Shown: piece by piece, positions 2 to 30,182 of the stretch | How the letters are laid out: each line of letters starts with the position of its first letter | Position numbering within the stretch: the stretch's first letter is position 1 | Origin: a virus | Virus record (IMG/VR): IMGVR_UViG_3300025127_000165 | Coordinates: 1-30,336 of that record | Reading direction: 5' to 3' (one strand) | DNA: 30,336 nucleotides | Position numbers and translations under genes: made by a program | The notes under the pieces: generated by a model | Databases searched by the model: none | Seen by the model: only the letters and a program-made list of their open reading frames with translations | Told to the model about the DNA's origin: nothing

Positions 2-1531
2 GGTGTAAATCAGTTTGTACTAGAAACTCTTGAATACTGTTGGGAGGAAAGAATAGAGGTTGGTTCATTGATAGATAGGGAGCTTGCAGAACTGCCAACA
101 AAACCACTCGATATAGATACCAATAAGGAAGCACGAAAAGAGTGGCGGTATATGGCTTCTTTAATCCATGATATGAACGCACAGAATATGGTCAAGCGGT
201 ATCAAATACTATCCATGATTGATACAGCAAAAAGATATTGTGATGAAAAATTTTATCACGTTTATCAGTTTGATTTTACTGGTCGTATGTACCCACTAAC
301 TGCACACTTCCACCCACAAGGTAATGATATAGCAAGAGGGTTGCATAGATTTCATGAAGGTGCAGAGATAAAGACTAAGCAAGACTTGAACTGGTTAGCC
401 ATAGCAGGTGCTAATCATTGGGGAATGAATAAACATACCTATGAGGAACGACTTGAGTGGGCTTACATAGAAGGAACTGATCTAGCAGAAGAAGTTTATA
501 AAGATCCGATAGGTAATGTTGGTGTATGGGGTAGAGCTAAAGAACCTTTCCAGTTTCTTGCTTGGTGTAAAGAGTGGTCGGAGTTTCAGATTACAGGGTG
601 GGGGTATATCTCTCATCATGTTTGCTGTCTTGATGGTACGAATAATGGGTATCAACACATAGCAGGTCTTATATCTAATCAACATTTAGCTAACAAAGTT
701 AACCTACAAAATGTTAATGAACCGCAAGATTTATATAAACAAATACTTGATGTTCTCTTGATGCTACTGAAGTATGACAAGTCTGAGCAAGCTGCAATCT
801 GGTATGCACAGAAAGATAAGTTGACAAGAAAGTTTATAAAAAAACCTGTGCTAATGATTCCATATAACTCAACAACATTCGGGATAGCAAACTACATAGA
901 AAAATATTTTGTAAACGAAAATGTTTTTATCGCAAAAAATTTTAAGAATAATTTTTATTTAGCAACCATGATTGAACAAGCTGTAAAGTATGTGACCCCA
1001 GAAAGTTATGAAGTATTGAAGTACTTGCAGACTACAGCGTTATGTTTCAACAAAGAGAATAAACCTATCTCTTGGCATACACCATCAGGGTTTCTTGTTC
1101 AACAGAACTACTACAAGAATGATGTCAAAAGAGTAAAGACTAAACTAAGTAACTCAAGTGTAAGGCTTAGTCTTGCTGAACCTGATACTACTAAGGTGGA
1201 TAAACGTAGACAGGCACAGGGTTTTCCTAGTAATTATATACATAGTCTTGACGCTGCACATTGCCACATGAGTTTAGTAGAAGCAAGCAAGCATGGACTA
1301 AAAAACTTTTGTGTCATACATGATTGCTATGGCAGTCCAGCTAGTGAGCTTCAAAGATTTATTGAATGTGTAAAGCAAAGTTTCTTTAATATTTATAGTG
1401 ACAACAATCTAGATAATTTATACCACCAAACAACACAACAACTTAGCGATACAAGTAAGTTACCAGCAGCACTAGATATGGGAGACTATGATATTACAGA
1501 TGTGTTGACAGCACCATATATATTTACATGA
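2..1531 (+). CDS. T7-like single-subunit RNA polymerase (5' end outside window)
   Basis: This is the C-terminal part of a DNA-directed RNA polymerase of the T7 gp1 family, which transcribes the phage's own genes. The reading frame is open from base 2, so 509 residues are visible and roughly 330 N-terminal residues lie upstream. Counting from base 2, the palm motif A (CLDGTNNGYQH) has the catalytic Asp at residue 211. Motif B keeps Arg276, Lys280 and Tyr288 with the same spacing as T7 R627, K631 and Y639. YIHSLDAAH carries the His equivalent to T7 H784 (residue 414), and motif C (VIHDCYG) has the second catalytic Asp at 441. The TGRMYP and PQGNDIARGL blocks also match T7. The protein ends in an aromatic/hydrophobic foot (APYIFT), like the T7 FAFA end. 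All catalytic residues visible are intact. The TTG at 68 is not a credible start. Confidence 0.97.
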   Translation, partial: GVNQFVLETLEYCWEERIEVGSLIDRELAELPTKPLDIDTNKEARKEWRYMASLIHDMNAQNMVKRYQILSMIDTAKRYCDEKFYHVYQFDFTGRMYPLTAHFHPQGNDIARGLHRFHEGAEIKTKQDLNWLAIAGANHWGMNKHTYEERLEWAYIEGTDLAEEVYKDPIGNVGVWGRAKEPFQFLAWCKEWSEFQITGWGYISHHVCCLDGTNNGYQHIAGLISNQHLANKVNLQNVNEPQDLYKQILDVLLMLLKYDKSEQAAIWYAQKDKLTRKFIKKPVLMIPYNSTTFGIANYIEKYFVNENVFIAKNFKNNFYLATMIEQAVKYVTPESYEVLKYLQTTALCFNKENKPISWHTPSGFLVQQNYYKNDVKRVKTKLSNSSVRLSLAEPDTTKVDKRRQAQGFPSNYIHSLDAAHCHMSLVEASKHGLKNFCVIHDCYGSPASELQRFIECVKQSFFNIYSDNNLDNLYHQTTQQLSDTSKLPAALDMGDYDITDVLTAPYIFT

Positions 1532-1605: not shown

Positions 1606-2262
1606 ATGGAAGATCTCAAGCCTGAGACTATTAAGATAGTCACACCAAATCCTACTAACTTTAGGTATTCATATCTTGTAACCCCTGACGAGTACAAGGG
1701 TATCAAAAAATATAAAGCAGAATGTCTTATCAAGAAAGGCATTATGATGAAAGATGAAATGGGTAGAGAAGTTGATGCAGTAGAACATATCTACTCACAG
1801 CTAGAAGAACTACTAGAAAGATGGAAGGTTTCATTAAAAGAACACTATCCAGATAGAAAGTTTACTCTTACCAAGAATAAGTTTGGCGAACCTGCACTTC
1901 CTTATTACTTAGAAGATGAATACTTAGTCATCAAGACAAGTAAGAAGGCAGGTGGGGTAAAACAAAATGGTGAGGTATGGACTAATCCACCTGTTACTTT
2001 CTGGGCTAACGAAGACCCATTACGTCTAATGACAGACGAAGAAAAAGAACAGTATGAAAAGATTAGTCCTATGACAGAAGGACAGATGTCTATGAAGTGT
2101 AGTGGCTATGACGCAGGTGCTAATGGTGTTGGTATTAGATGTCAGCCTTTACAAGTCATAGTAAGAAAGCACGTTGAATGGACAGGTAGCCCAGACTTTC
2201 AAGCAGAAGCACCGAGTAGTTATGAAGAAAAAAGTACTGCGTCAACAGCAGCCGACTTCTAA
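1606..2262 (+). CDS. Single-stranded DNA-binding protein, T7 gp2.5-like
   Basis: This 218-residue protein fits the T7 gp2.5 family (232 residues in T7), which coats single-stranded DNA during replication and recombination and organises the replisome. Assignment rests on position (between RNA polymerase and endonuclease I), length and overall pattern: an N-terminal PNPTNFRYSYLVTPDEY stretch, a central YLEDEYLVIKTSKKAGG strand-like region and a late block containing VGIRCQPLQVIV. In T7 the last residues are strongly acidic and end in Phe; here the tail ends in ADF but is mainly Ser, Thr and Ala with only a few acidic residues. The gene follows a 74-base spacer and overlaps the start of the next gene by 41 bases, which suggests coupled translation. 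Sequence similarity to T7 is weak by eye, so context carries much of the call. Confidence 0.82.
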   Translation: MEDLKPETIKIVTPNPTNFRYSYLVTPDEYKGIKKYKAECLIKKGIMMKDEMGREVDAVEHIYSQLEELLERWKVSLKEHYPDRKFTLTKNKFGEPALPYYLEDEYLVIKTSKKAGGVKQNGEVWTNPPVTFWANEDPLRLMTDEEKEQYEKISPMTEGQMSMKCSGYDAGANGVGIRCQPLQVIVRKHVEWTGSPDFQAEAPSSYEEKSTASTAADF

Positions 2263-2638
2263 ATACAAGAGTAAATTTGAAAGTCAATTTGCTGACAACT
2301 TAACCAAAAAGAAAATTATCTTTACCTATGAAACTCTCAGCATTGACTATGAAATCACTTGCACCTATCGCCCTGACTTTATCCTCAACAATTTTATTGT
2401 TGAAACGAAGGGCTACTTCTCGAAAGAAGATAGACGCAAGCATCTTGCAATTAAGGAGAAACGACCCGACCTAGATATAAGGTTCTGTTTTCAAAATAGC
2501 AGAACCAAACTATCAAAAGCCAAGAACTCTATCTCTTATGCCAAGTGGTGTGAGAGACATGGGTTTCAATACTGCGACAAATTTATTCCTGATGATTGGT
2601 ATGAAGAGCCAATACAAAAACAAAATAGTTTGCCCTGA
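2222..2638 (+). CDS. Endonuclease I (Holliday-junction resolvase), T7 gp3-like
   Basis: This 138-residue protein matches T7 endonuclease I (149 residues), which cuts branched DNA and degrades host DNA. From the ATG at 2222 the active-site residues fall at Glu20, Asp52 (YRPDF), Glu61 and Lys63 (VETKG), the same set and nearly the same spacing as T7 E20, D55, E65 and K67. Downstream blocks (DRRKHLAIKE, SRTKLSKA, FIPDDW) also match T7. An in-frame ATG exists at 2174, but it would add 16 residues inside ssb with no counterpart in T7, so 2222 is preferred. The gene overlaps ssb at its start and primase-helicase at its end (38 bases), forming a nested overlapping cassette. Confidence 0.95.
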   Translation: MKKKVLRQQQPTSKYKSKFESQFADNLTKKKIIFTYETLSIDYEITCTYRPDFILNNFIVETKGYFSKEDRRKHLAIKEKRPDLDIRFCFQNSRTKLSKAKNSISYAKWCERHGFQYCDKFIPDDWYEEPIQKQNSLP

Positions 2639-4205
2639 GTGCGGTAAAAAAAACTGTGCAGTCTTTGATGATGGACACCACCATTGCTTCACTATGGACT
2701 GTGGCTACACCTACTACCCAAACAAAAAAGAAAAACCAGTGACCAGTAAGATTATTCCTATTTACAAACCAAACCCACAGTTACTTAAGGTAACACCGAT
2801 TGCTTTACCTAAACGTGGAATCACAAAGGAGACTTCAGAACTATTTGGTTATGGTATGTCAGAGTACAGAAGGCAGCCAGTACAAGTAGCTACATATAAA
2901 GATCAGAAAGGTAATGATGTTGCACAGCACATACGCTTTCAAGATAAAAAGTTTATATGGATAGGAGATATGTCAAAGGTACAACTGTGGGGTCAGCATC
3001 TATGGAGACAGCATGGAGGTAATGGTTCTGTCTTTTTAACTGTATGTGAAGGTGAGATAGATTGCATGAGTGCTAGTCAGATACAGGGTAATAAGTTTCC
3101 CTGTGTATCCATACCATCAGGAGTACAGTCAGCAGCTAAGTATCTAGCAGCAAACTATAAATGGCTTGATAGTTTTTGTCGTATAGTTATTTGCTTTGAC
3201 AATGATGAAGCAGGTAACAAAGCAGCAGAAAAATGTATGGAGGTACTGCCAAGAGGTAAGGCAGCTATAGCAAGACTAGATCGTAATGATATAAACGATC
3301 ATCTTGTATTAGGAGAAGGTGATCTTATTAAAGACAGACTATGGAAAGCTAGACCAGTAAGACCTGACTCTCTAATTAATGCAGCAGACGCTTGGGATTT
3401 ATTTACCAAAGAAACAAGTAAACCTGTATCAGACTTTCCATTTCCAAAGCTTAATGAATACACAAGAGGTTTGTTTCCTAGTCAGATATTTACAGTAGCT
3501 AGTGCTAGTGGTGCAGGTAAGTCAACGATATGTAGAGAACTATGTCACCACTTTTTAAAAAGAAACCTCAAGGTTGGTTACATAGGGTTAGAAGAATCAG
3601 TACAAAGAACTCTTCAAGGTCTAGTAGGCATTGACTTGAATATTCCTTTGCATTTAAATGAAGATGTCATAACTAAAGATGATCTGCGGATTGCGTTTGA
3701 TAACCTCACCTCAACACGCAATCTTTTTTTATACAACCACTTTGGTAGTCTTGAGCCTGATGTATTACTAGAACAGATAAGATACTTAGCAACTGTTGAT
3801 GGAGTAAAGGTAGTCATACTAGATCACATAAGCATAGTCTTGTCTGGTCTTGAACTAGATAATGAACGCAAAGCAATAGATATAATAATGACCAAGCTTA
3901 GAAGCTTGAGTGAAGCAACTGGCATAGCTATTGTATTGGTCAGTCATCTACGCAGACCACAAGGACAATCACATGAGTCGGGCAGAGAGGTAGATACATC
4001 TGACTTAAGAGGTAGTCATAGTCTTCTTCAACTATCAGATGTTGTACTATCTGCATCAAGAAACCAGACAGGAGATGCTAGTGAGAGACAGCGATTACAG
4101 CTAAAGGTACTTAAGTCTAGGCATACTGGCATGACAGGAGAAGTAGATAAATTATTGTACGACCAGAAGACAGGTCGGCTTGTTGTGTATGAGGATTTTA
4201 TTTAA
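2601..4205 (+). CDS. Bifunctional primase-helicase, T7 gp4-like, without acidic C-terminal tail
   Basis: This 534-residue protein would make RNA primers and unwind DNA at the fork. From the ATG at 2601 there is an N-terminal zinc motif with Cys11, Cys14, Cys29 and Cys34. The TOPRIM primase core follows, with EGEID (Glu150) and FDNDEAG (Asp200, Asp202). The RecA-like helicase domain has Walker A ASGAGKST (Lys307) and Walker B VVILDH (Asp408), followed by ERKAIDIIMTKL, SHLRRP, TSDLRGSHSLLQLSD and a final arginine-rich part, all close to T7. Longer in-frame starts from 2538 lie inside endonuclease I and precede the zinc motif by too much. The protein ends in VVYEDFI, just where T7 gp4 continues into an acidic tail ending in Phe that contacts DNA polymerase. 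The exonuclease gene starts two bases later, with no polymerase gene between. Confidence 0.97.
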   Translation: MKSQYKNKIVCPECGKKNCAVFDDGHHHCFTMDCGYTYYPNKKEKPVTSKIIPIYKPNPQLLKVTPIALPKRGITKETSELFGYGMSEYRRQPVQVATYKDQKGNDVAQHIRFQDKKFIWIGDMSKVQLWGQHLWRQHGGNGSVFLTVCEGEIDCMSASQIQGNKFPCVSIPSGVQSAAKYLAANYKWLDSFCRIVICFDNDEAGNKAAEKCMEVLPRGKAAIARLDRNDINDHLVLGEGDLIKDRLWKARPVRPDSLINAADAWDLFTKETSKPVSDFPFPKLNEYTRGLFPSQIFTVASASGAGKSTICRELCHHFLKRNLKVGYIGLEESVQRTLQGLVGIDLNIPLHLNEDVITKDDLRIAFDNLTSTRNLFLYNHFGSLEPDVLLEQIRYLATVDGVKVVILDHISIVLSGLELDNERKAIDIIMTKLRSLSEATGIAIVLVSHLRRPQGQSHESGREVDTSDLRGSHSLLQLSDVVLSASRNQTGDASERQRLQLKVLKSRHTGMTGEVDKLLYDQKTGRLVVYEDFI

Positions 4206-4207
4206 CT

Positions 4208-4942
4208 ATGACTTTACTTATTGATGCTGATTGGTTGATCTACAATTCTTGCTGTGCCTGTGAGCAAGACACAAGATGGAATGATTGGGAGCATACTCTT
4301 CACTCTGATGAAAGAGACATACTTAATTTGATAGAGAACAGATTAGATGTTTATAGAACTATTGCTGACAGCAAGCATGACATAGTTATGTGCTTTACTT
4401 CCTACCCTACATTTAGACATGAGATATTTCCTGAGTACAAGATCAACAGGATAGGTAAACGTAAACCACTAGCACTCAAGAGTGTTATCAAAGAAGTAAA
4501 AGAAAGATATGAAACTGTTGCCTATGAAAACCTAGAAGGAGATGACGTACTTGGATTGCTTGCTACAAATGGCAGATACAAAGACCCAATAATAGTTTCA
4601 GTAGATAAAGATATGAGAACACTACCATGCAAACTTATAGCTGATGATTCGATAGAACATATAACAAACAAGAAAGCAGACAGGCATTGGTTTGAGATGT
4701 CGTTAGCTGGTGATGCTGGTGACGGAATATTAGGTATCAAAGGTATGGGTATGGTTACAGCTTCAAAGACTTTAGCTAGTACACCTGATACCAAAGAAGC
4801 ACTATGGTCTAAGGTACAGGAGACATACACTAAGAAAGGTTACACGATTGCTGATGCCATCTTGAACGCAAGGCTTACAAGAATACTGCGAGAAGGAGAT
4901 TATGATTACAATACAGGTGAAGTAAAGCTTTGGAATCCATAA
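4208..4942 (+). CDS. 5'-3' exonuclease, T7 gp6-like
   Basis: This 244-residue protein belongs to the T7 gp6/FEN-type 5' nucleases, which remove RNA primers, generate single strands for recombination and degrade host DNA. Metal-binding acidic clusters are visible: LIDADW (Asp6, Asp8), LEGDDVLG (Asp112, Asp113), SVDKDM (Asp133, Asp135) and GDAGDG (Asp169, Asp172), the last next to the helix-hairpin-helix-like GIKGMG. The C-terminal ARLTRILREGDYDY...LWNP mirrors the end of T7 gp6. It is shorter than T7 gp6 (300 residues), mainly between the acidic clusters. The start follows the helicase stop by two bases (TAACTATG), suggesting translational coupling. It is the last gene of the DNA-metabolism block and is followed by hairpins. 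Confidence 0.94.
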   Translation: MTLLIDADWLIYNSCCACEQDTRWNDWEHTLHSDERDILNLIENRLDVYRTIADSKHDIVMCFTSYPTFRHEIFPEYKINRIGKRKPLALKSVIKEVKERYETVAYENLEGDDVLGLLATNGRYKDPIIVSVDKDMRTLPCKLIADDSIEHITNKKADRHWFEMSLAGDAGDGILGIKGMGMVTASKTLASTPDTKEALWSKVQETYTKKGYTIADAILNARLTRILREGDYDYNTGEVKLWNP

Positions 4943-5055: not shown

Positions 5056-5250
5056 GTGTCTTTACCAGTAATTACTGACGAACTTATACAAGCTTTAGAT
5101 GCTGTGTTTCCTGACAGATGTCCAGACCTATCGCTATCAGATCGAGAAGTGTGGTATCGTGCAGGGCAGAGGTCTGTTGTTGACTATGTTATCGAACAGC
5201 AACTAAGACAAAAAGAAACTATGTTAACTAACAGAGTATTGGAGAACTAG
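5056..5250 (+). CDS. Small conserved phage protein upstream of portal
   Basis: This 64-residue protein has unknown function. The GTG start at 5056 is chosen because the N-terminus SLPVITDELIQAL resembles short proteins that I recognise ahead of the portal gene in marine podoviruses, where a similar start is followed by an AFP(E/D)RCP-like stretch; here it is AVFPDRCPDLSLSDREVW. No good Shine-Dalgarno sequence precedes the start. It is mostly helical by composition, with no signal peptide or membrane segment, and ends in a charged helix (YVIEQQLRQKE). It opens the structural block and is followed two bases after its TAG by the next gene. A head-assembly or portal-related role is only suggested by position. 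Confidence 0.75.
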   Translation: MSLPVITDELIQALDAVFPDRCPDLSLSDREVWYRAGQRSVVDYVIEQQLRQKETMLTNRVLEN

Positions 5251-5252
5251 TC

Positions 5253-5612
5253 ATGTGTCTTGGAGGAAGAAGGCAGCCACCTCAAATTGCAACACAAGAA
5301 TCAGAATCAGAGTTTCAAAACAGACCTGTTACTGTAACTGGTAAACAGACAGGAGTTGATAACCCTAAAGATACAGCTAAAGCAACAGAGACTTTAAAGA
5401 TAAAGAGACAGAAAGAAGAAGGAACTTATGTAGACCCTAACCTTACAACAGCAGACATACTTACAAGAAGACGTTCTGGAAATAATAGATTTAAAAATAA
5501 CCTTCGCAATAGAAGAAAATCAGGAACAACTAAAGCACAAAAAATGGCACGTGCTAGATTAGGTAAGAAATTTAGTTCTAGTCCTACAGGTCGTAGAACA
5601 GGAGTTGCTTAA
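5253..5612 (+). CDS. Basic Met-Cys-Gly-start protein ahead of portal
   Basis: This 119-residue protein of unknown function starts MCLGGRRQPP, has a low-complexity polar N-terminal half and a strongly basic C-terminal part (RRRSGNNRFKNNLRNRRKSG, then KMARARLGKKF) ending in GRRTGVA. Such disordered, basic proteins with a Met-Cys-Gly start are common next to the portal gene in marine phages. The following gene has a similar start (MCVGRRR) and may be a diverged paralogue. The start follows the preceding TAG by two bases, with GGAG about nine bases upstream. A virion or DNA-contact role is possible from its charge but unproven. Confidence 0.75.
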   Translation: MCLGGRRQPPQIATQESESEFQNRPVTVTGKQTGVDNPKDTAKATETLKIKRQKEEGTYVDPNLTTADILTRRRSGNNRFKNNLRNRRKSGTTKAQKMARARLGKKFSSSPTGRRTGVA

Positions 5613-5614
5613 TT

Positions 5615-5914
5615 ATGTGTGTAGGAAGAAGAAGAACCCCTAAAGTTACAAGTCCAAGTACAACTAGAAGTACAACTAAAAGTACAAGCACCCCACTAAG
5701 AGACTCGGCTATAGAAAAAACTGCAACTAAAGTAGTACTAAGTGATGATAGGACTATGGGAACTCCTAAAGAGAAAAAAAGAAAACAATCATTTGATAAA
5801 GTAACAGGCGGAAAACAGGCTAGAGCCATAGCTCCAAAACGATTAGGTACTAGATCTTTGCAAATACCTTTGCTTATAGATAGTAATGCTTTCGGAAACT
5901 TAAATTATTCATAA
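5615..5914 (+). CDS. Basic Met-Cys-start protein immediately upstream of portal
   Basis: This 99-residue protein of unknown function begins MCVGRRRTPK, continues with a Ser/Thr-rich low-complexity stretch and a basic middle (KEKKRKQSFDKVTGGKQARA), and ends in GTRSLQIPLLIDSNAFGNLN, a hydrophobic short tail of a type I associate with small cyanophage structural proteins. It resembles its upstream neighbour at the N-terminus and may be a paralogue. It starts two bases after that gene's stop (TAATTATG) and ends one base before the portal start, so it is probably translated together with the portal. A head-to-tail or portal-associated role is a guess from position. Confidence 0.75.
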   Translation: MCVGRRRTPKVTSPSTTRSTTKSTSTPLRDSAIEKTATKVVLSDDRTMGTPKEKKRKQSFDKVTGGKQARAIAPKRLGTRSLQIPLLIDSNAFGNLNYS

Positions 5915-5915
5915 G

Positions 5916-7526
5916 ATGGAATATTTGGCACAAGGAACGACAGCAGCAGGTAGATATGAAGCACTTGTTAGTAGTAGGTCTGTCTATGATAGAGAAGCAA
6001 AAGAATCTTCTAAGCTAACCATACCTAGTCTGATACCAGAACAGACATCAGGTACTAGAGCTAAGATCAAGACACCTTTTCAAGCAACAGGTAGTCGTGG
6101 TGTTAATTCTTTATCAAATAAATTATTAATGACTTTGCTTCCACCAAGCACAGCATTTTTTAAATTAGAAATAGATGATCTTGAAATAAGAAAGCAAGGA
6201 CAAGAAGCACTACAAAGTGAAATAGATAAAGGATTACAAACAATAGAAAATGCTTTGATGAATCAGATAGAAATATCTAACGATAGAGTTGCTATGTTTG
6301 AAGCACTCAAGCATCTTGTAGTATCAGGTAATGTCTTGTTATATCTGACAGATAAAGGATTAAAAGTATATCCACTATCTAAGTTTGTTTGTAAGCGTGA
6401 TGAAGTTGGTAATGTTTTAGAAATATTGATTAAAGAAACAGTACACCCACAAGCTTTACCTCTTGAGTTCTTAGAACAGATCAAGAAGAAAGAGAACTAT
6501 GACGCAGACATGATGAAGGGTGACTTGGATATATATACATCTATTAAAAGAGTTAATGATGACTTTTTTTGGTTTCAAGAATGTAAAGGAGAAAAGATAC
6601 CAAATACAGATGGCAGATCAAAAGTAGATGTCACTCCCTTTATTCCTCTCAGGTTTATTCGGATAGATGGAGAAGATTACGGAAGAGGATATGTTGAAGA
6701 GTATCGTGGTGATTTGATTAGTCTTGAGTCTTTGATGCAAGCAATCATAGAAGGTGCTGCTGCCAGTGCTAAAACAGTATTCTTGGTAAACCCAAATGGT
6801 ATTACAAGAGCAGCTACTTTAGCTAAAGCACCTAATGGAGCCATACGAGAAGGTAGTGCTGGTGATATTTCTGTGATGCAAGTAGGTAAAGCAGCCGACT
6901 TCTCTGTTGCAGAAAGAGTTATACAAAGAATTGAGATGAGACTTGAAGCTGCTTTCTTGATGATTAGGTCAGTACAACGTGATGCAGAAAGAGTGACAGC
7001 AGCCGAAGTAAACCTTATGGCACAAGAATTAGAGAATAGTCTTGGTGGTATATATAGTATCTTGACTCAAGAGTTTCAATTACCATATTTAAAAAGACGT
7101 ATGCACCTTTTGGTAAGACAGGGCAAGGTTCCTAAACTGCCTGATGAACTGGTCAAACCTAAGATAGTAACAGGACTGCAAGGACTTGGTAGGGGTAATG
7201 ATAGAAACAAACTAATTGAGTTTATTGGAACTGTAGCTCAAGCATTAGGACCAGATGTGATGAGACAGTACGTAAATGTAGATGAAGCAGTAAAAAGACT
7301 AGCTACCAGTATCGGTATAGATACTGCTAATCTAGTAAAAACACAAGAACAAATCCAAGCTGAAGCTGAAGCTGCTGCACAACAACAGCTTATTCAAAGT
7401 CTTGGACCTGCTGCTCTAGGTTCTAAACTACTTGATCCTAAAGCAAATGCTGATGCTGGTTTAGCTGATGCAAAAACACAACAACTACAACAAGGAGGAA
7501 CCCCTGATGCCAACCAAGAAGTCTAG
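5916..7526 (+). CDS. Portal (head-tail connector) protein, T7 gp8-like
   Basis: This 536-residue protein, the same length as T7 gp8, forms the ring at the capsid vertex through which DNA is packed and ejected. The start MEYLAQGTTAAGRYEALVSS, the following SVYDREAKESSKLTIPSLIP block and GSRGVNSLSNKLLMTLLPP are typical of T7-like portals. The middle contains the RYVEEYRGDL-like stretch (GRGYVEEYRGDLISLESL) and the late part VTAAEVNLMAQELENSLGG, also hallmark portal sequence. The C-terminus is Gln/Ala-rich. It starts one base after the preceding stop and overlaps the next small gene by 20 bases. Confidence 0.96.
   Translation: MEYLAQGTTAAGRYEALVSSRSVYDREAKESSKLTIPSLIPEQTSGTRAKIKTPFQATGSRGVNSLSNKLLMTLLPPSTAFFKLEIDDLEIRKQGQEALQSEIDKGLQTIENALMNQIEISNDRVAMFEALKHLVVSGNVLLYLTDKGLKVYPLSKFVCKRDEVGNVLEILIKETVHPQALPLEFLEQIKKKENYDADMMKGDLDIYTSIKRVNDDFFWFQECKGEKIPNTDGRSKVDVTPFIPLRFIRIDGEDYGRGYVEEYRGDLISLESLMQAIIEGAAASAKTVFLVNPNGITRAATLAKAPNGAIREGSAGDISVMQVGKAADFSVAERVIQRIEMRLEAAFLMIRSVQRDAERVTAAEVNLMAQELENSLGGIYSILTQEFQLPYLKRRMHLLVRQGKVPKLPDELVKPKIVTGLQGLGRGNDRNKLIEFIGTVAQALGPDVMRQYVNVDEAVKRLATSIGIDTANLVKTQEQIQAEAEAAAQQQLIQSLGPAALGSKLLDPKANADAGLADAKTQQLQQGGTPDANQEV
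7492..7498 (+). promoter_or_regulatory. Strong Shine-Dalgarno site inside portal 3' end
   Basis: AAGGAGG is a perfect anti-16S match eight bases ahead of the ATG at 7507. It decides the start of the 51-residue gene, which otherwise could be read from an ATG at 7468 inside the portal gene. Such strong sites are rare in this window. Confidence 0.8.
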
Positions 7527-9610: not shown

Positions 9611-10597
9611 ATGGCTAACGCCACAGTCTCACGTCTTGGTTTGGTCAACAATACAGGAACATCATTTGATGCCCTGTTTTTAAAGGTATTTAGTGGCGAG
9701 GTGCTAACTGCGTTTGCCAGAAACAATATCTTTAACGAGCAACTTCATTCAGTTCGTACTATCACAAGTGGTAAGTCAGCACAGTTTCCAGTATTAGGAA
9801 CTGCTACTGCTGCATACCATACAGTAGGAACTCCTCTTGTTGGTGCTAACCAAATCAAGGCAAACGAAAAGATTATCAACATTGATGATCTTCTAATTGC
9901 ACAGAGTTTTATCGCAAACATAGATGAACTCAAGAATCATTATGACGTAAGAGCTACTTACGCTGATGAATTAGGTAAGGCACTTGCTAGAACCTATGAC
10001 CAAAACGTAGCCAAGCAGATTGCAAACGCTTCCAGAGCTTCTACTACTCTTAGTGGTGGTAATGGTGGTCTTGTATTGACACTTGCTAATGGTAATACAT
10101 CATCTTCTGATGTTACTGGTGATGAGATAGCAGCAGCTATCTATGATATTGCACAAACATTTGACGAGAGAGACATCCCTCCAACAGATCGTTTCTGTGT
10201 ATTACCACCTGCTGAGTACTACAAACTTGCTGAGTCTGCTACAAGAACTGTAGACGTTGACTTCAACCCACAGGGTAATGGTTCGTTTGCTTCTGGCAAG
10301 GTACAACAAGTTGCTGGCATACCAATCATGATGTCTAACAACGTACCTCAGTCAAACGTAGGATCTAACCCAAGTGGTGCTAATAACACTTACTCAGGTG
10401 ACGATAGTAAGACTATTGGTCTTGTCTTCCATAAATCTGCTGTTGGTACAGTAAAACTTATGGACATGACAACTGAGATCTCAGGCTCCGACTACGGAAT
10501 TATGTATCAAGGTACATTAATGGTTGCAAAATACGCACTTGGTCATGGAATCCTAAGACCAGAATGTGCAGCTACTATTAAGTTATCTGCTTCTTAA
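9611..10597 (+). CDS. Major capsid protein, T7 gp10-like
   Basis: This 328-residue protein (T7 gp10A has 345) builds the icosahedral head with the HK97 fold. The N-terminus MANATVSRLGLVNNTGTSFD, then LFLKVFSGEVLTAFARNNIF, RTITSGKSAQFPVLGTATA and HYDVRATYADELGKALARTYD are typical of T7-like capsid proteins. Later blocks include PPTDRFCVLPPAEYYKLAES and the C-terminal YALGHGILRPECAATIK. Strong ribosome binding site before, intrinsic terminator after: it looks like a highly expressed unit. No slippery site for a T7-like 10B frameshift product is obvious at its end. Confidence 0.97.
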   Translation: MANATVSRLGLVNNTGTSFDALFLKVFSGEVLTAFARNNIFNEQLHSVRTITSGKSAQFPVLGTATAAYHTVGTPLVGANQIKANEKIINIDDLLIAQSFIANIDELKNHYDVRATYADELGKALARTYDQNVAKQIANASRASTTLSGGNGGLVLTLANGNTSSSDVTGDEIAAAIYDIAQTFDERDIPPTDRFCVLPPAEYYKLAESATRTVDVDFNPQGNGSFASGKVQQVAGIPIMMSNNVPQSNVGSNPSGANNTYSGDDSKTIGLVFHKSAVGTVKLMDMTTEISGSDYGIMYQGTLMVAKYALGHGILRPECAATIKLSAS

Positions 10598-10723: not shown

Positions 10724-11335
10724 ATGACTGTAGCTGCAACCACTGAACTTGAAGCTGTCAATATAATGATGGCTGCTATAGGTGAATCACCTGTAAATAC
10801 TTTAACAGGTACACTACCTGCTGATGTTGTGATGGCTCGGTCTACTTTGACTGAAGTAAATAAAGAAGTACAGTCTGAAGGCTGGTCTTTTAATACTGAA
10901 ATAGATGTAACCCAACAAAGAACAAATGGTACAAATCATATTGATTTAAGTACTGATGTGTTAAGAATTGATCCTAATATTCATCAACACCCTACGATTG
11001 ATGCAATACAAAGAGGACTTAAGTTATACGACAGATTAAATAATACTTATATATTTAATGAAGATCTTATTTGTACTATTGTTTATTTAAGAACTTTTGT
11101 TGAAATACCAGAACCAGCAAGAAGATATATAACAATAAAAGCTGCAAGAATATTTGTAGATAGGCTTGTTGGAGATCAAGGATTAAGAACCTATACACAG
11201 CAAGACGAAACAAGAGCAAGAGCAATATTAATGGAGACAGACTATGCTAATGCAGATCATAATTTACTAAGAGGAGACCCTTCTTTAACAAGTATTTTTA
11301 ATACTTACAATCCTTCTAGTGCTTTAATTAGATAA
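10724..11335 (+). CDS. Tail tubular protein A, T7 gp11-like
   Basis: This 203-residue protein (T7 gp11 has 196) forms the gatekeeper ring between portal and nozzle. Typical features are the N-terminal TELEAVNIMMAAIGESPVNT, the SEGWSFNTE block and the C-terminal part IPEPARRYITIKAARIFVDR. Position right after the capsid and before tail tubular protein B supports the call. It ends two bases before the next start (TAACTATG). Confidence 0.95.
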   Translation: MTVAATTELEAVNIMMAAIGESPVNTLTGTLPADVVMARSTLTEVNKEVQSEGWSFNTEIDVTQQRTNGTNHIDLSTDVLRIDPNIHQHPTIDAIQRGLKLYDRLNNTYIFNEDLICTIVYLRTFVEIPEPARRYITIKAARIFVDRLVGDQGLRTYTQQDETRARAILMETDYANADHNLLRGDPSLTSIFNTYNPSSALIR

Positions 11336-11337
11336 CT

Positions 11338-13800
11338 ATGCCTGTCATTTCAAGAGCTATACCTACATTGTTGAGAGGTATATCACAATCTTCTGATGCC
11401 TTAAAGCAGCCAGATCATGCTGATATACAAGACAATGCTGACAGTAATCCTGTTCTTGGTTTAACAAAACGTAGTGGTTTGCAATACCTTGCAGCTTTAT
11501 CTTCTTCTACTCTTGGTAATGTTCATATACAAACTATTAATAGAGATGCTAACGAAAAATATGTAGCTGTATTTAGTAATGGTAATGTACAAGTTTTTGA
11601 ATTAGATGGAACAGAATTAACTGTTAATAAACCTGATGGCACTGCTTATTTAAATACTTCTGACCCAAGAAGTGTAATGAAAACAGTTACTATTGCTGAT
11701 TTTACTTTTGTTGTAAATACAAGTATTACAGCAGCTATGGATACTACTCTTAGCAGTGGTACTGGTACAAAGGCAATTATATTTATAAATCAAGCAACAT
11801 CAAAAACAACTTATTCAGTAACAATAGATGGAGTGACAGTTACAGATAACACTGCTACTGATTCCACTTTAAGTACGAGTACAATAGCTGCTGATTTAAA
11901 ATCAGGATTTGATTCTGGTCTTACTGGTTTTACTATTGAAAGAAATGGTCCTGTTCTATATGTAAGAAAAAATGATAATTCTAATTTTTCTATAGATGGT
12001 AGAGATACACAAGGTAATACTAAAATGACAATAATAAAAGATACAGTACAAAGATTTACTGACCTACCTACTGTTTCTCCTAATGGTTATGTTGTAGAAG
12101 TCAAGGGAGATGACGATACAGATTTTGATAATTATTACGTTAAGTTTGTAACTAATAATGGCGGTTCATTTGAAGAAGGGCAGTGGGAAGAAACTGTAGA
12201 AGCTGGAATACCTTTTAAATTTGACTATGCAACAATGCCACATGTTCTTATACGTCAGGCAGATGGTAATTTTAGATTTGCAAGGGTAGATGGTGATAGC
12301 TATAGCGTTACAGTTGGAGGTTCTACATTTTCATTTGATTTACCTAAATGGGGTGAAAGAACTGTTGGTGATGTTATATCAGCACCTAATCCTTCTTTTA
12401 TTGGTAATAAAATTAATAATGTATTTTTCTTTAGAAACAGACTTGGATTTCTTGCAGGTGATAATGTAATACTTTCAAGAGTATCAGAGTTTTTTAACTT
12501 CTTTCCTGAGACAGTTGTATCTGTTTTAGATAATGAACCGATAGATGTAGCTGCTTCTCATACCAAAGTTGCGATCTTAAAAAGTGCAGTAACTATGGGA
12601 GAAAAACTTATCTTGTTTTCTGAACAGACGCAGTTTGTATTGACTAGTTCAGCAGATAACCTTACTCCTAAAACAGCTAACGTGATAGTAGTAACTGAAT
12701 TTGAAAGTAGTGCAGCAGCACAGCCTGTAGGTTCTGGTAGTTCTATTTATTTTTTAACACAGAAAGGTTCTTTTGCTGGTATTAGAGAATATATTATTCA
12801 AGGTGAATCACAGATAAGAGATGCAGCAAATATTACTATTCATGTTCCAAGACTGATACCAAGTAATATTTTTAAAATGGCTGTATCTACTAACCAAGAT
12901 ATTCTTATTTTATTAGGTTCAGACAATACTAATAAACTATATGTATATAGATGGTTATATGGGGAGGGTGGACAGAAAGCTTTAAGTAGTTGGTTTACTT
13001 ATACAATCAACACTAATCGTTCTATTTTAAATGTAGATTTTATTGGTACAGATTTGTTTGCTGTTATAGAAGAAGCTAATAAAGTAACCTTAGAAAAAAT
13101 ACCATTTGAAACTGAATTTAATGAAGCTAATGCTACTCTTGAATATCATTTAGATCATAAGGTAACAGAAGCAACTACAGGTGTTAGTACTGCTTTTAGT
13201 AATGGTGTAACTACATTTACAGTTCCTTACAGGTTAAGAGCTAGCATGAATATTGTTGGTCGATTTTTAGATAAGTCCAGTAATGAAACAAGTACTTATG
13301 TTGATAGTAATGGAGCAACAAAAACTTTAGAAGAAGGTCAAGTAATACAGACAACAAATTCTACTGATGGTTCTACTTCTACAATTACAGCTACAGGAGA
13401 TTATACAAATAGTAAATTTATTATTGGTGAACCTTATGAAATGCACTACAGATTTAGTAAACAAAGATTAACAGAACAAGGTGCTGGAACACCAGAACTG
13501 ATAGGAGGTAGATTACAATTACATCATTTTTATATTAAGTATGAAGATGCTGGGTTTTTTAAAGTAGAAGTAACACCAGAGAATAGAGATACATCTACTT
13601 ATGAATTTACTGGTAATATATTAGGTGCAGCATCTAGCACAATAGGACAAATTAATTTAGATACAGGTACTTTTAGAGTACCTATTATGAGTAAATCAGA
13701 TAGGGTTGATATAGATATAAAGAACAATACTTTTTTACCTACAAGATTAGCTAGTGCAGAGTATGAAGGAGTATTTCATATGAGGAGTAGAAGAATTTAG
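11338..13800 (+). CDS. Tail tubular protein B (nozzle), T7 gp12-like
   Basis: This 820-residue protein (T7 gp12 has 794) forms the tail nozzle. Visible family hallmarks are the N-terminal RAIPTLLRGISQSSDALKQP with HADIQDNADSNPVLGLTKRSG, the middle NNVFFFRNRLGFLAGDNVIL block followed by SRVSEFFNFFPETV, the EKLILFSEQTQFVL strand and the late YRWLYGEGGQKALSSWFTY. It is beta-rich with Ser/Thr-rich loops. The region between residues 130 and 220 is a Thr-rich insert-like stretch. Its TAG overlaps the GTG start of the next gene by one base. Confidence 0.95.
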   Translation: MPVISRAIPTLLRGISQSSDALKQPDHADIQDNADSNPVLGLTKRSGLQYLAALSSSTLGNVHIQTINRDANEKYVAVFSNGNVQVFELDGTELTVNKPDGTAYLNTSDPRSVMKTVTIADFTFVVNTSITAAMDTTLSSGTGTKAIIFINQATSKTTYSVTIDGVTVTDNTATDSTLSTSTIAADLKSGFDSGLTGFTIERNGPVLYVRKNDNSNFSIDGRDTQGNTKMTIIKDTVQRFTDLPTVSPNGYVVEVKGDDDTDFDNYYVKFVTNNGGSFEEGQWEETVEAGIPFKFDYATMPHVLIRQADGNFRFARVDGDSYSVTVGGSTFSFDLPKWGERTVGDVISAPNPSFIGNKINNVFFFRNRLGFLAGDNVILSRVSEFFNFFPETVVSVLDNEPIDVAASHTKVAILKSAVTMGEKLILFSEQTQFVLTSSADNLTPKTANVIVVTEFESSAAAQPVGSGSSIYFLTQKGSFAGIREYIIQGESQIRDAANITIHVPRLIPSNIFKMAVSTNQDILILLGSDNTNKLYVYRWLYGEGGQKALSSWFTYTINTNRSILNVDFIGTDLFAVIEEANKVTLEKIPFETEFNEANATLEYHLDHKVTEATTGVSTAFSNGVTTFTVPYRLRASMNIVGRFLDKSSNETSTYVDSNGATKTLEEGQVIQTTNSTDGSTSTITATGDYTNSKFIIGEPYEMHYRFSKQRLTEQGAGTPELIGGRLQLHHFYIKYEDAGFFKVEVTPENRDTSTYEFTGNILGAASSTIGQINLDTGTFRVPIMSKSDRVDIDIKNNTFLPTRLASAEYEGVFHMRSRRI

Positions 13801-14809: not shown

Positions 14810-17239
14810 ATGGTTTTACAAGTAGGCACTACAAGTTTTCAAAGTACAGCAGGTCAAAGCTCTAGACAACCTGTAGATACTTTTGTTGAACCTGTAAGCG
14901 TATTACCTAAAACAGGCATAATGGAGTTAGCTGAAACGTTGCAATCTATTAATCCTACACTACAAAAATTTGTAAACTTTACGATACAAAAAGAAAAACA
15001 AAAAGGAATATTAGAAGGTCAAAATCAAATCTTAGGTTCTACTCCTACTGAAATAAATAAAATAAAAAAAGAATTAGAAAAGAAAGAAGGTAAAAGATTT
15101 GCTAGAAATTTTGTTGGTGGGAATATATACACACAATATGGAATAGAAAAACAATTAGCAATTAATTTAGGTAATGCAGCAGAAGCAAAAACCAAAAAGT
15201 TTTTTAGTGAATATCAAGTAAATATTAATTTACCTAATGGAGAAACAATACAACAACCTCTATCACAGTTTGATGTTGACTCACCACAATTTGACGCAGC
15301 AGTAAATGAATTTCAAGAAACAAATTTACTTGATGTAAAAGGAATTAGACCTGATATATTAAATCAACATTTTTTACCAAGACAAAATTTAGCTTTACAA
15401 AAAGCTATTGGCAAACATACAGAAGATAGAGCCGATCAAAAAATACAATTAGCTACTACAACTTTTTCAAATTCACTTTTAGGTAGTTGGAATAATATAG
15501 ATAACATCAACGATAGTATTGAACTCAATGTTATAGATGATAACTTTGTTGACGATGGTTCTGGTCTATCCCAAGCAGAAAGTATTGCTCTTAAAGAAAT
15601 TCAAGACAATGCAGATTATATGGTGAGTATTGGATTGAGTGAAGCTGTATCACCTTCAAGTTTTAAAAATTATATTACAAGTAGTGTTAATACAATTCTT
15701 CAATCATATAAAGATTCTGATATGAGTGAATTAGAAGCTATGGAAGAGATAGATGATTTTATAGATTTTATAGGCAAAGTAAAAGTAGGGCCAAAAGGTC
15801 TTACTAAAACAGGACAGACAGTACAGAAAGATTTAAAAAGTTTTCTTGATGCAGATAATACTATAGTAAAACTAAAAAAAGAAATCTTTGAAGAAATAAA
15901 TAGTTTAGCAAAGCAAGAGAATGATTTTTTAGAAGCAGCAAAACAAAATGATATTAATAACAGATTAGATCAATTAGATTTTGCTAGTGATGATGCAGAA
16001 GTTATACAAAATAATGCAAGAATAATATCTGCTTTAAAACAAGATTATAAAAATGAAATAGATTTTGTTGATACACAAGTTACTCTTAGAAACTTTAATG
16101 TAGATGGTTGGTTTTTAAACTTTCAAAAAAGATGGGTTAGTGGTGAGTTTGATGGCAATAAGTTAGCTGCAAGAACAGAGTTAAATAATTTTATGATTTC
16201 ACTAGGTTCTAGTGCGACAAAAGAAGATAAAGGAGAATATACAAGATTAGATAATCTTGTTAAAAGTCAATCAGGACAAGGCTTATTAACACAATATCCA
16301 GAGATAAAAGGAGTTATAAAGTTTGGAGAAAAGGTATTAAGTGAAAAAGACCCAAATGGATTTGATTTTATGAATGTAGGTAGAGTACAACAAAAATATG
16401 ATCTTGATTTTAAATTTGAAAAAGAAGTAGAAGCAGTTGTTGTAGATACAGAAATTTCAACACAACAAAAAAGAAAAATAATTGATGATCTTATCAGTTT
16501 TTATAAAGAACAAATTGGAAATATTAAAGATAATACTTATACTTTTTTTGATGAAGATAATAACATTAGTGCAGCAAAGCCAAATCAATTTAAAAAGAGC
16601 CAAGAATCAAACTCTGTAGATATACCAGATGCTTTTAATTTAAGCAGTTTAAACACACCAGATAATCAAAGAATAGTAAGTGATGTTGTTAATACATTAG
16701 GTGGTAGAGATGGCAGCTTAATTGCTATGGCTAATCCTACAGATACAGAAACAACTACGATAGTAGGTGCAGAAGAACCAAGCGGAGTAAAAAGATTTGA
16801 AGCCAACTTTCCCGTCTTCTACAAATTAGCTAAAGATGCAGGGCATAAATTTCCAGAAGTAACAGCAGCACAAGTAATGTTAGAAACATCAAATGGTGCA
16901 AGTCCTTCTGCTACAAACAATTATCTAGGTTTAAAAGCTACGCAAGATGAAGCTGATAAAGGTCAAGCAACTCTACAAAACACTCAAGAAAATATTGAAG
17001 GCAAAGATGTTGATATACAAGATAATTTTAAAAACTTTAATAGTTTACAAGATATGATGAATCAATATAAGACACAGTGGAATGATGACTTTATGGGAAG
17101 AAAGGGTACTGTTAATGTAGATACTGCTGAAGAAGCAGCTAAGTTGTTGCAAGCAAATGTCTTTGCAACTGACCCTGACTATGCCAAAAAGATTATGCAA
17201 ATAATCAGAGATGCAAAACGTAATCCACCACTATTTTAG
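14810..17239 (+). CDS. Internal virion protein gp15-like with C-terminal glucosaminidase domain
   Basis: This 809-residue protein takes the place of T7 gp15 (747 residues), an inner-core protein ejected into the cell to form the periplasmic tunnel. Most of it is helical and charged. Residues about 662-805 look like a glucosaminidase/FlgJ-type peptidoglycan hydrolase domain: FPVFYKLAKDAGHKFPEVTA, then AAQVMLETSNGASPS with Glu692 as probable catalytic residue, NNYLGLKAT, NFKNFNSLQDMMNQY and a closing FATDPDYAKKIMQIIRD. In T7 the wall-degrading domain is a transglycosylase at the N-terminus of gp16, so here the activity sits on another protein. It probably opens the host cell wall for DNA entry. 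It starts two bases after gp14. Confidence 0.9.
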   Translation: MVLQVGTTSFQSTAGQSSRQPVDTFVEPVSVLPKTGIMELAETLQSINPTLQKFVNFTIQKEKQKGILEGQNQILGSTPTEINKIKKELEKKEGKRFARNFVGGNIYTQYGIEKQLAINLGNAAEAKTKKFFSEYQVNINLPNGETIQQPLSQFDVDSPQFDAAVNEFQETNLLDVKGIRPDILNQHFLPRQNLALQKAIGKHTEDRADQKIQLATTTFSNSLLGSWNNIDNINDSIELNVIDDNFVDDGSGLSQAESIALKEIQDNADYMVSIGLSEAVSPSSFKNYITSSVNTILQSYKDSDMSELEAMEEIDDFIDFIGKVKVGPKGLTKTGQTVQKDLKSFLDADNTIVKLKKEIFEEINSLAKQENDFLEAAKQNDINNRLDQLDFASDDAEVIQNNARIISALKQDYKNEIDFVDTQVTLRNFNVDGWFLNFQKRWVSGEFDGNKLAARTELNNFMISLGSSATKEDKGEYTRLDNLVKSQSGQGLLTQYPEIKGVIKFGEKVLSEKDPNGFDFMNVGRVQQKYDLDFKFEKEVEAVVVDTEISTQQKRKIIDDLISFYKEQIGNIKDNTYTFFDEDNNISAAKPNQFKKSQESNSVDIPDAFNLSSLNTPDNQRIVSDVVNTLGGRDGSLIAMANPTDTETTTIVGAEEPSGVKRFEANFPVFYKLAKDAGHKFPEVTAAQVMLETSNGASPSATNNYLGLKATQDEADKGQATLQNTQENIEGKDVDIQDNFKNFNSLQDMMNQYKTQWNDDFMGRKGTVNVDTAEEAAKLLQANVFATDPDYAKKIMQIIRDAKRNPPLF

Positions 17240-28259: not shown

Positions 28260-28298
28260 AGTTCACATGCCTGTACGTGTGGCGTCTAAACTAGCTAC
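28252..28298. terminator. Inverted repeat between convergent genes, probable bidirectional terminator
   Basis: GTAGCTAG (28252-28259) and CTAGCTAC (28291-28298) are perfect inverted repeats. Inside lies a second stem, CACATG/CGTGTG (28264-28269/28276-28281, one G-T pair). An A-rich flank on the left and TTAAATTTTT on the right give a T-run for each direction. The left arm ends with the TAG of the + strand gene and the right arm contains the TAG of the - strand gene. Confidence 0.65.
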
Positions 28299-28831
28299 TT
28301 AAATTTTTCAGAGTTAGCTTTTACATAACTTCGTATATTGATTACATCATTGCAGATGTATGCGAACTTGGACTTAGGATTTATCATATAACCGCTTGCG
28401 TGAAGCTGCCCACACTTCAAGATACGAACTAGCTGCTTATCATGCACTTGCTTGTCTAGTTCTTCTTTGGCTAGGTCTAGCTTTACTTTTGCTAGTTCAG
28501 AACACGTTTCATTATTAGTTCCTAGCGGTATCATAAAACTCATTTGAAATCCCCAACCTTCATTAATACTATAGGTTTCACTATCAGGATTCTCAGCATC
28601 ATTACCTGTATAAAAAGGGGTAAATGCCATTGTTGGTTGACTACATATTAAATTTCCAAACTGCAACTTACCTGTCATTCCATTATTAACATTCATATTT
28701 TGATTGATAATACTTGAGTTACCAATTGCATTTGGTTGAGCTACGACATCAGTATCGCCTTCAGCTTTTACCTTATTACTGACTAAACACAGACAAGCTA
28801 GTAATAACGCTTGTAGTCGTAATTGTATCAT
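28295..28831 (-). CDS. Secreted four-cysteine protein (conserved in cyanophages)
   Basis: This 178-residue protein has a probable Sec signal peptide (MIQLRLQALLLACLCLVSNK, cleavage after VKA at about residue 23). The mature part has an Asn/Gln-rich stretch (IINQNMNVNNGMTGKLQFGN), TPFYTGNDAENPDSETYSIN, GWGFQMSFMIPLGTNNETC and a helical C-terminal part (LVRILKCGQLHASGYMINP, then YICNDVI). Four Cys remain in the mature part and could form two disulfides. I recognise this family, with its FxxGxMIPL-like and ILKCxxLxxxGYxxxP blocks, as one of the usual secreted unknowns of marine cyanophages. Its start overlaps the upstream gene by 56 bases. It may act in the periplasm or on the cell surface; function is unknown. 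Confidence 0.75.
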   Translation of the reverse strand: MIQLRLQALLLACLCLVSNKVKAEGDTDVVAQPNAIGNSSIINQNMNVNNGMTGKLQFGNLICSQPTMAFTPFYTGNDAENPDSETYSINEGWGFQMSFMIPLGTNNETCSELAKVKLDLAKEELDKQVHDKQLVRILKCGQLHASGYMINPKSKFAYICNDVINIRSYVKANSEKFK

Positions 28832-29141
28832 TCTGTGTGATTTGTTCTGTTAATGCACTAGCAGCCCTTGTAGTCGTACTTAAAGTCCATTCAGCAGTAC
28901 TATCTGTTGGAGTAAATACTGCATCTGTAGCTGTTATTCCACCACTTGTATCTGAAGTAACAGTAATGTTTGTAGCTTCCCAAGTGTTTAATGCTGATCC
29001 GTATTTCTCAGTAACAATACTGCGAGTTATTGTTTGTGTAGTATTTTCAGTTCTATTAGATGAACCTGTAGTCCAAGTTGGCACTGTGTTTGCGTAACAA
29101 GGTGCAGTTATAAACAACCCTAGTAATAAAAGTTTTTTCAT
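28776..29141 (-). CDS. Secreted Ser/Thr-rich protein (conserved in cyanophages)
   Basis: This 121-residue protein starts with a clear Sec signal peptide (MKKLLLLGLFITAPCYA, cleavage probably before NTVPTW). The mature protein is Ser/Thr/Asn-rich and probably beta-structured: TWTTGSSNRTENTTQTITRS, then WEATNITVTSDTSGGITATD, ending in TTSVITSLSVFSQ. The ANTxPTxTTGSxN start and SxSVFSQ end are features I recall from a family common in marine cyanophages and of unknown function. It overlaps the upstream membrane-protein gene by four bases and the downstream secreted-protein gene by 56 bases, so the three genes form one - strand operon. Confidence 0.75.
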   Translation of the reverse strand: MKKLLLLGLFITAPCYANTVPTWTTGSSNRTENTTQTITRSIVTEKYGSALNTWEATNITVTSDTSGGITATDAVFTPTDSTAEWTLSTTTRAASALTEQITQNDTITTTSVITSLSVFSQ

Positions 29142-29392
29142 TTGATACCTACCTTGTTTTTACTATTATCCACTATTTTAGGAGAATTGCCATTTTTCTT
29201 TTGTCCAACGGAAATTCCATAAGAACCTAACACACCACTAACTAAACCTGCGGTAAATGCTCCATCAATTCTTACCTTGCCCATGTATCCAAGAGTCATC
29301 ATTGATAAACTCCAAGTCAAGATTAAAAATCGAACAGCATGACCAAACAGGTCACCCCAATCAAAACCTTCCTTTTCTTCTTTTTCTTCCAT
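29138..29392 (-). CDS. Small two-helix membrane protein, holin candidate
   Basis: This 84-residue protein begins with a highly charged head (MEEKEEKEGFDWGDLFGH), then two hydrophobic segments (about 19-37, AVRFLILTWSLSMMTLGYM; and about 44-62, GAFTAGLVSGVLGSYGISV) separated by a charged turn (GKVRIDG), and a basic polar tail. Size, two segments and charged ends would suit a class II holin, and the position, between fibre genes and terminase, is where T7 keeps its holin gene 17.5. There is no sequence match to the T7 holin, and the gene lies on the opposite strand with two secreted-protein genes, so another membrane role is equally open. Confidence 0.7.
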   Translation of the reverse strand: MEEKEEKEGFDWGDLFGHAVRFLILTWSLSMMTLGYMGKVRIDGAFTAGLVSGVLGSYGISVGQKKNGNSPKIVDNSKNKVGIK

Positions 29393-29960: not shown

Positions 29961-30182
29961 ATGGATAAAAACTTAAAAATACTTAAGACCATACATTATG
30001 AGTTAGCAAAACATATACTTGATCTGATAAAAAGTGGTGAAGCAAAGGCAGGGGATTTAAACGTAGCTAGACAGTTTTTAAAAGATAATGGTATTGAGTG
30101 TATTCCTGTAGAAAACAACCCAATGGAAGAGCTTATGAACAACTTACCAGACCTAGATGCTGTACCTTTAGCTGATTTATAA
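29961..30182 (+). CDS. Small terminase subunit, T7 gp18-like
   Basis: This 73-residue protein sits directly upstream of the large terminase, where T7 has gp18 (89 residues), which recognises concatemeric DNA and regulates cutting. Its sequence fits short phage small terminases: an N-terminal helix (LKTIHYELAKHILDLIKSGE), a DLNVARQFLKDNGIE segment, the kind of helix seen in many phage small terminases, and a C-terminal tail NPMEELMNNLPDLDAVPL, likely used to bind the large subunit. The large terminase starts immediately after its TAA. Confidence 0.85.
   Translation: MDKNLKILKTIHYELAKHILDLIKSGEAKAGDLNVARQFLKDNGIECIPVENNPMEELMNNLPDLDAVPLADL

Follow-up and report, generated by a model that had tools for sequence, protein, structure and literature searches.

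The window analysed here is a stretch of 30,336 bases that corresponds exactly to one IMG/VR record, and this record is itself a fragment of a phage genome. Its left end carries a T7-like module in the order RNA polymerase (cut), single-stranded DNA binding protein (SSB), endonuclease I, gp4, exonuclease, three small ORFs and portal. The features that are relevant to this analysis are as follows:

2 to 1531, plus strand: T7-type RNA polymerase, C-terminal 509 residues, cut by the window start (PHROG 414, E 9e-137; PF00940, E 6e-77)
1606 to 2262, plus strand: gp2.5-like SSB (PHROG 112, E 2e-6; tails compared)
2222 to 2638, plus strand: endonuclease I, gp3-like (PF05367, E 1e-38; PHROG 945, E 7e-44)
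2601 to 4205, plus strand: gp4-like primase-helicase (PHROG 239, E 1e-160; Pfam domains; alignment; tail comparison)
4206 to 4207, plus strand: gene 5 (DNA polymerase) position, empty, with two bases separating gp4 from the exonuclease
4208 to 4942, plus strand: gp6-like 5'-3' exonuclease of the FEN family, starting with the ATG at 4208 (PHROG 107, E 4e-47; PF02739, E 2e-14)
5056 to 5914, plus strand: three small ORFs (64, 119 and 99 aa) without an assigned function, between exonuclease and portal
5916 to 7526, plus strand: portal, or head-tail adaptor (PHROG 449, E 2e-166)
9611 to 10597, plus strand: major capsid protein (97% identical to that of P-SCSP2)
29961 to 30182, plus strand: terminase small subunit, with the large subunit past the window end as in relatives (PHROG 891, E 3e-15)

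The presence of a single-subunit T7-type RNA polymerase together with a T7-like gene order is what is expected of the Autographiviridae. A comparison of start codons across 73 loci places the start of endonuclease I at the ATG at 2222, with the longest ORF running from a TTG at 2174, and the gene overlaps the end of the SSB gene in a different frame. Likewise, the conserved gp4 start (MKSQYK) lies at 2601 and the longest ORF begins at 2538. Alignment shows that the zinc-binding cysteines, the TOPRIM motifs and the DnaB-type ATPase/helicase motifs of gp4 are all intact. The SSB ends in AADF and thus keeps the terminal DF of T7 gp2.5-type proteins, and gp4 ends in VVYEDFI and is missing the acidic -DF tail.

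There is no DNA polymerase gene between gp4 and the exonuclease in the window. The sequence-only reading had described the gene 5 position as empty, and this was confirmed with gp4 ending at 4205 and the exonuclease ATG at 4208. Its claim that no polymerase motifs occur elsewhere in positions 1 to 30336 was also borne out, as six-frame profile searches of the whole 30,336-base record returned zero matches to PF00476 (family A), PF07733 (Pol III alpha) and PF03175 and PF00136 (family B). With PF00476, the gene is detected in all of 13 T7-like relatives that have a polymerase, indicating that the family A search works on such genomes. A hidden or split polymerase within the window is ruled out by these family A, B and C profile searches together with domain searches. 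The T7-type RNA polymerase at 2-1531 is the sole polymerase that the window encodes, and the phage-encoded family A polymerase (gp5) of a T7-type replisome is missing from it.

The evidence supports the window as a 30.3-kb fragment of an uncultured, P-SCSP2-like ocean cyanopodovirus of the MPP-C clade. This assignment follows from 80.5% DNA identity and 97% capsid identity to P-SCSP2, and from its grouping with P-SCSP2 and P-SCSP1a at full support. Specifically, in a seven-protein tree (3,390 columns, 17 phages) the window and P-SCSP2 group with a support of 100, and P-SCSP1a joins them also with a support of 100. Placement in a tree with known polymerase-lacking cyanopodoviruses, which the sequence-only reading had proposed as a check, therefore puts the window inside MPP-C. 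The core-gene phylogeny groups it with P-SCSP1 and P-SCSP2, apart from MPP-A and MPP-B, and MPP-C itself stands beside polymerase-bearing cyanopodoviruses including P-RSP2 with a support of 94, which is not decisive. Because the MPP-C capsid and gp4 proteins have higher identities to those of roseophages, a nesting of MPP-C with roseophages was also considered; it is rejected by the tree and by an AU test (p-AU 0.00025). The MPP-C clade was named and described by Cai et al. 2022 (PMC9860041), so a polymerase-less lineage is already published and the window is a further uncultured member and not the first case, as the sequence-only reading had suspected. The host is probably Prochlorococcus, judging solely by the likeness to P-SCSP2. 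None of the auxiliary metabolic genes psbA, hli, nrd, thyX and talC was found among the window proteins scanned, which include part of the small ORFs, and the nrd position holds small ORFs only.

We then compared this locus across relatives by scanning IMG/VR with the gp4 of the window and with those of P-SCSP1a, CRP-361, HTVC109P, HTVC011P and P-SSP7. The six scans together comprise 446 sequences, reference genomes included. A locus was typed by its best gp4 match and was considered informative when the exonuclease was visible; MPP-C-type loci are the 77 window-like and 24 P-SCSP1-like ones. The polymerase is missing in 101 of 101 informative MPP-C-type loci, with a gp4-exonuclease distance of <=50 nt in all of them, and is present without exception in 278 of 278 informative loci of other T7-like marine types, although redundancy among contigs means that 101 and 278 are not independent counts. 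The uniformity of the 101 loci indicates that the arrangement is not due to chance. It also bears on the idea that a deletion or mis-join during assembly took a polymerase gene from between gp4 and the exonuclease, for which there is only the fragmentary state of this contig. Against this, the junction, either a 2-nt gap or a 4-nt overlap, recurs in dozens of independent contigs and in the cultured isolates P-SCSP1a and P-SCSP2, which already refute an artefact, so that its chance is practically nil. On the tree, one state change suffices for the absence of the polymerase. The contrast between 101 loci without and 278 with a polymerase, together with this one state change, indicates that gene 5 was lost a single time, in the MPP-C ancestor, as one loss would explain the whole distribution.

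As the window record is a fragment, absence of the polymerase from the whole phage has to be judged through relatives. Mapping to P-SCSP2 indicates that ~7.1 kb is missing from the window, which gives a whole genome of ~37.4 kb as compared with a published MPP-C range of 37.3-37.9 kb. The equivalent stretch in relatives G001 (gp4 99% identical) and G002 contains the large terminase subunit, a few small ORFs and an integrase, and that of G007, a contig with a 77-bp exact terminal repeat, contains the same kinds of gene plus an ArdC-like protein (the ArdC and terminase domain names for this stretch come from P-SCSP2). No candidate polymerase is present in the equivalent stretch of these three relatives, and PF00476 has zero matches in P-SCSP2, P-SCSP1a and 21 IMG/VR relatives. 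A polymerase in the missing part is therefore rejected for the relatives, both by zero PF00476 matches in 22 records and by the gene content of the stretch. That this phage alone carries one there, making the gene absent from the fragment only, would agree with the incompleteness of the record, but with relatives of up to 99% gp4 identity having a terminase subunit, small ORFs and an integrase in that stretch, and with the gene in 0 of 22 records, we consider this very unlikely. The sequence-only reading had offered two alternatives, reliance on a host polymerase and a polymerase gene located beyond the window; complete and near-complete relatives that are polymerase-less leave the second with very little room, and the first stands as the favoured one.

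The same stretch has other features. The ArdC-like antirestriction protein (N-terminal ArdC domain plus a zincin-like peptidase) is encoded downstream of the large terminase gene, at 35301-36251 in P-SCSP2 and at 39281-40270 in G007 (reverse complement). A tyrosine integrase gene is located upstream of the RNA polymerase in 16 of 22 relatives (e.g. G001:C1:8552-9046; P-SCSP2 892-1731), and these phages may thus be temperate. As for integrated relatives in bacterial genomes, the only candidates were a pair of contigs from a single MAG, which probably stem from free phage that was binned along with it, and integration was rejected.

A divergent, unrecognised polymerase could also be encoded elsewhere in the MPP-C genome. 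Very divergent proteins do escape profile searches, and Cai et al. (PMC9860041) could not exclude such an enzyme. However, nearly all P-SCSP2 products of >250 residues are assigned by annotation or profile, as integrase, RNA polymerase, gp4, portal, scaffold, capsid, gp12, tail fibres, terminase and ArdC-like protein, and a 437-residue protein is of the tail-fibre type. The proteins at the gp15/gp16 positions, which are assigned by position and size only, are replaced between subgroups, unlike what is seen for a replication enzyme. This makes a divergent polymerase highly improbable.

A possible change in polymerase contact is seen in the C-terminal tail of gp4. In T7, the acidic tails of gp4 attach to basic patches of gp5, and processivity drops from 17 kb to about 5 kb once 17 residues are deleted (PMC12593628). 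When distinct gp4 tails are compared, a terminal F is found in 0 of 18 from MPP-C as compared with 110 of 143 from polymerase-bearing phages, and net acidity averaged across the final 17 residues is 0.9 and 3.0, respectively. The T7-type acidic gp4 tail with a terminal phenylalanine is therefore not a feature of MPP-C, and we infer that gp5-type docking may have been relaxed after loss of the polymerase. This tail change is suggestive only, since MPP-C represents one event and since HTVC011P-type pelagiphages keep a polymerase without a gp4 terminal F; gp4 ends in E in 30 of the 143 polymerase-bearing tails. The terminal DF or EF of the SSB is kept in all MPP-C members examined.

These tails bear on whether host DNA polymerase I has been recruited to copy the fork, possibly made more processive by a phage factor. 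Like T7 gp5, Pol I belongs to family A, it is the option that Cai et al. (PMC9860041) name first, and MPP-C retains the DF-ending SSB tail, which makes contact with gp5 in T7. On the other hand, MPP-C has an altered version of the gp4 tail by which a gp5-type enzyme is docked. The genomes examined also yielded no recognisable processivity gene, thioredoxin-like or otherwise, and Pol I of the host serves chiefly in repair (PMC9860041). Overall we regard Pol I as an unlikely choice, though one to be taken seriously. S-TIP28 has an annotated thioredoxin gene at 11169-11471, between gp4 and the DNA polymerase. As T7 takes thioredoxin from its host as a processivity factor, S-TIP28 may bring its own.

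The reading that we prefer, with a probability of about 0.62, is that the window comes from an MPP-C phage whose lineage lost gene 5 once, and whose fork is primed and unwound by phage proteins and copied by a host polymerase, most likely Pol III. The ancestor would have lost gene 5 and kept the RNA polymerase, SSB, endonuclease I, primase-helicase and exonuclease. With its zinc-binding cysteines, TOPRIM and helicase motifs retained, gp4 would unwind and prime the phage fork, so that primer synthesis and unwinding are both done by the phage itself. The SSB would coat single strands, the host enzyme, of which the Pol III holoenzyme together with its clamp and clamp loader is the likeliest, would extend the phage primers, the phage exonuclease would remove primers or host DNA, and endonuclease I would resolve junctions. 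In phages T1, P4 and SPP1, a phage helicase works together with Pol III of the host. These precedents, of which SPP1 is cited in PMC9860041, and the matter of processivity favour Pol III over Pol I. A clamp-binding motif as the Pol III recruitment signal was rejected, as no such motif occurs in the replication proteins of the window; there is also none in the SSB and exonuclease of P-SCSP1a or P-SCSP2, and two weak matches are present in P-SCSP2 gp4 only. Thus, recruitment of Pol III to the window phage would have to be indirect. We consider it an evenly balanced proposition that the result is a hybrid fork, in which a T7-type primase-helicase freed of its gp5-docking tail works directly with the bacterial Pol III holoenzyme.

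Analysis of the module also leads to a correction of the literature. Cai et al. (PMC9860041) reported no recognisable endonuclease in P-SCSP2, but the gp3 endonuclease is present there. An intact, unannotated endonuclease I gene lies at about 5257-5628 of P-SCSP2 (OM416780), overlapping the end of the SSB gene, with an in-frame ATG upstream and a conserved core that is 96% identical to that of the window. The gene is found in all MPP-C loci with enough upstream sequence (67/67). The interval between endonuclease and gp4 contains one or two additional small ORFs in several relatives (L057, L031, L032 and others) and none in the window. MPP-C is also without a ribonucleotide reductase, whereas by annotation many polymerase-bearing relatives have one between exonuclease and portal; HTVC011P, HTVC025P and CRP-804 have a polymerase and no ribonucleotide reductase. 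Nucleotides could be drawn from host DNA by the retained endonuclease and exonuclease.

The single loss, the lack of a candidate in the missing stretch of relatives and the gp4 tail change together narrow the three options of Cai et al. to the inferred use of a host polymerase, as none of the others keeps strong support. MPP-C may make up nearly half of the cyanopodovirus reads from the surface ocean (PMC9860041), and the lineage is missed by surveys that use DNA polymerase as a marker. The hybrid fork, if true, would be a case of the T7 polymerase being naturally replaced by the host replisome, and the gp4 tail provides a specific, testable contact with a polymerase.

Outside the module, the window encodes at 14810-17239 an 809-residue internal virion protein with a C-terminal glucosaminidase domain (PF01832, E 1e-16), a domain that was not detected in its P-SCSP2 counterpart. 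As positions 15-21.5 kb of the window are also mostly without DNA similarity to P-SCSP2, the injection proteins seem to have been replaced. On the minus strand, 28295-29392 contains three genes, one of which matches PHROG 650; they occupy the same positions in P-SCSP2 and P-SCSP1a and are possibly lysis genes.

Among known systems, P-SCSP2 is the nearest named genome, with its 80.5% DNA identity extending over 67% of the first 12 kb of the window. It shares the gene order, the 2-nt gp4-exonuclease gap and the lack of both DNA polymerase and ribonucleotide reductase, and differs in the internal virion proteins and the tail-fibre region. P-SCSP1a to P-SCSP1u, the other MPP-C subgroup, also have no DNA polymerase but differ from the window in a 4-nt gp4-exonuclease overlap, a gp4 that is 53% identical, terminase genes on the opposite strand and no annotated integrase. 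The MPP-A/B phages and P-RSP2 (P60, S-TIP28, P-SSP7) share the T7-like replication module and cyanobacterial hosts and are the nearest tree neighbours. In contrast to the window, they have a family A DNA polymerase between gp4 and exonuclease, and a ribonucleotide reductase is annotated in P60, S-TIP28 and P-SSP7. Finally, roseophage CRP-361 and pelagiphages HTVC120P/HTVC109P have the closest gp4 outside MPP-C (40-44%) and the same order of SSB, endonuclease, gp4 and exonuclease, but unlike the window they carry a DNA polymerase.
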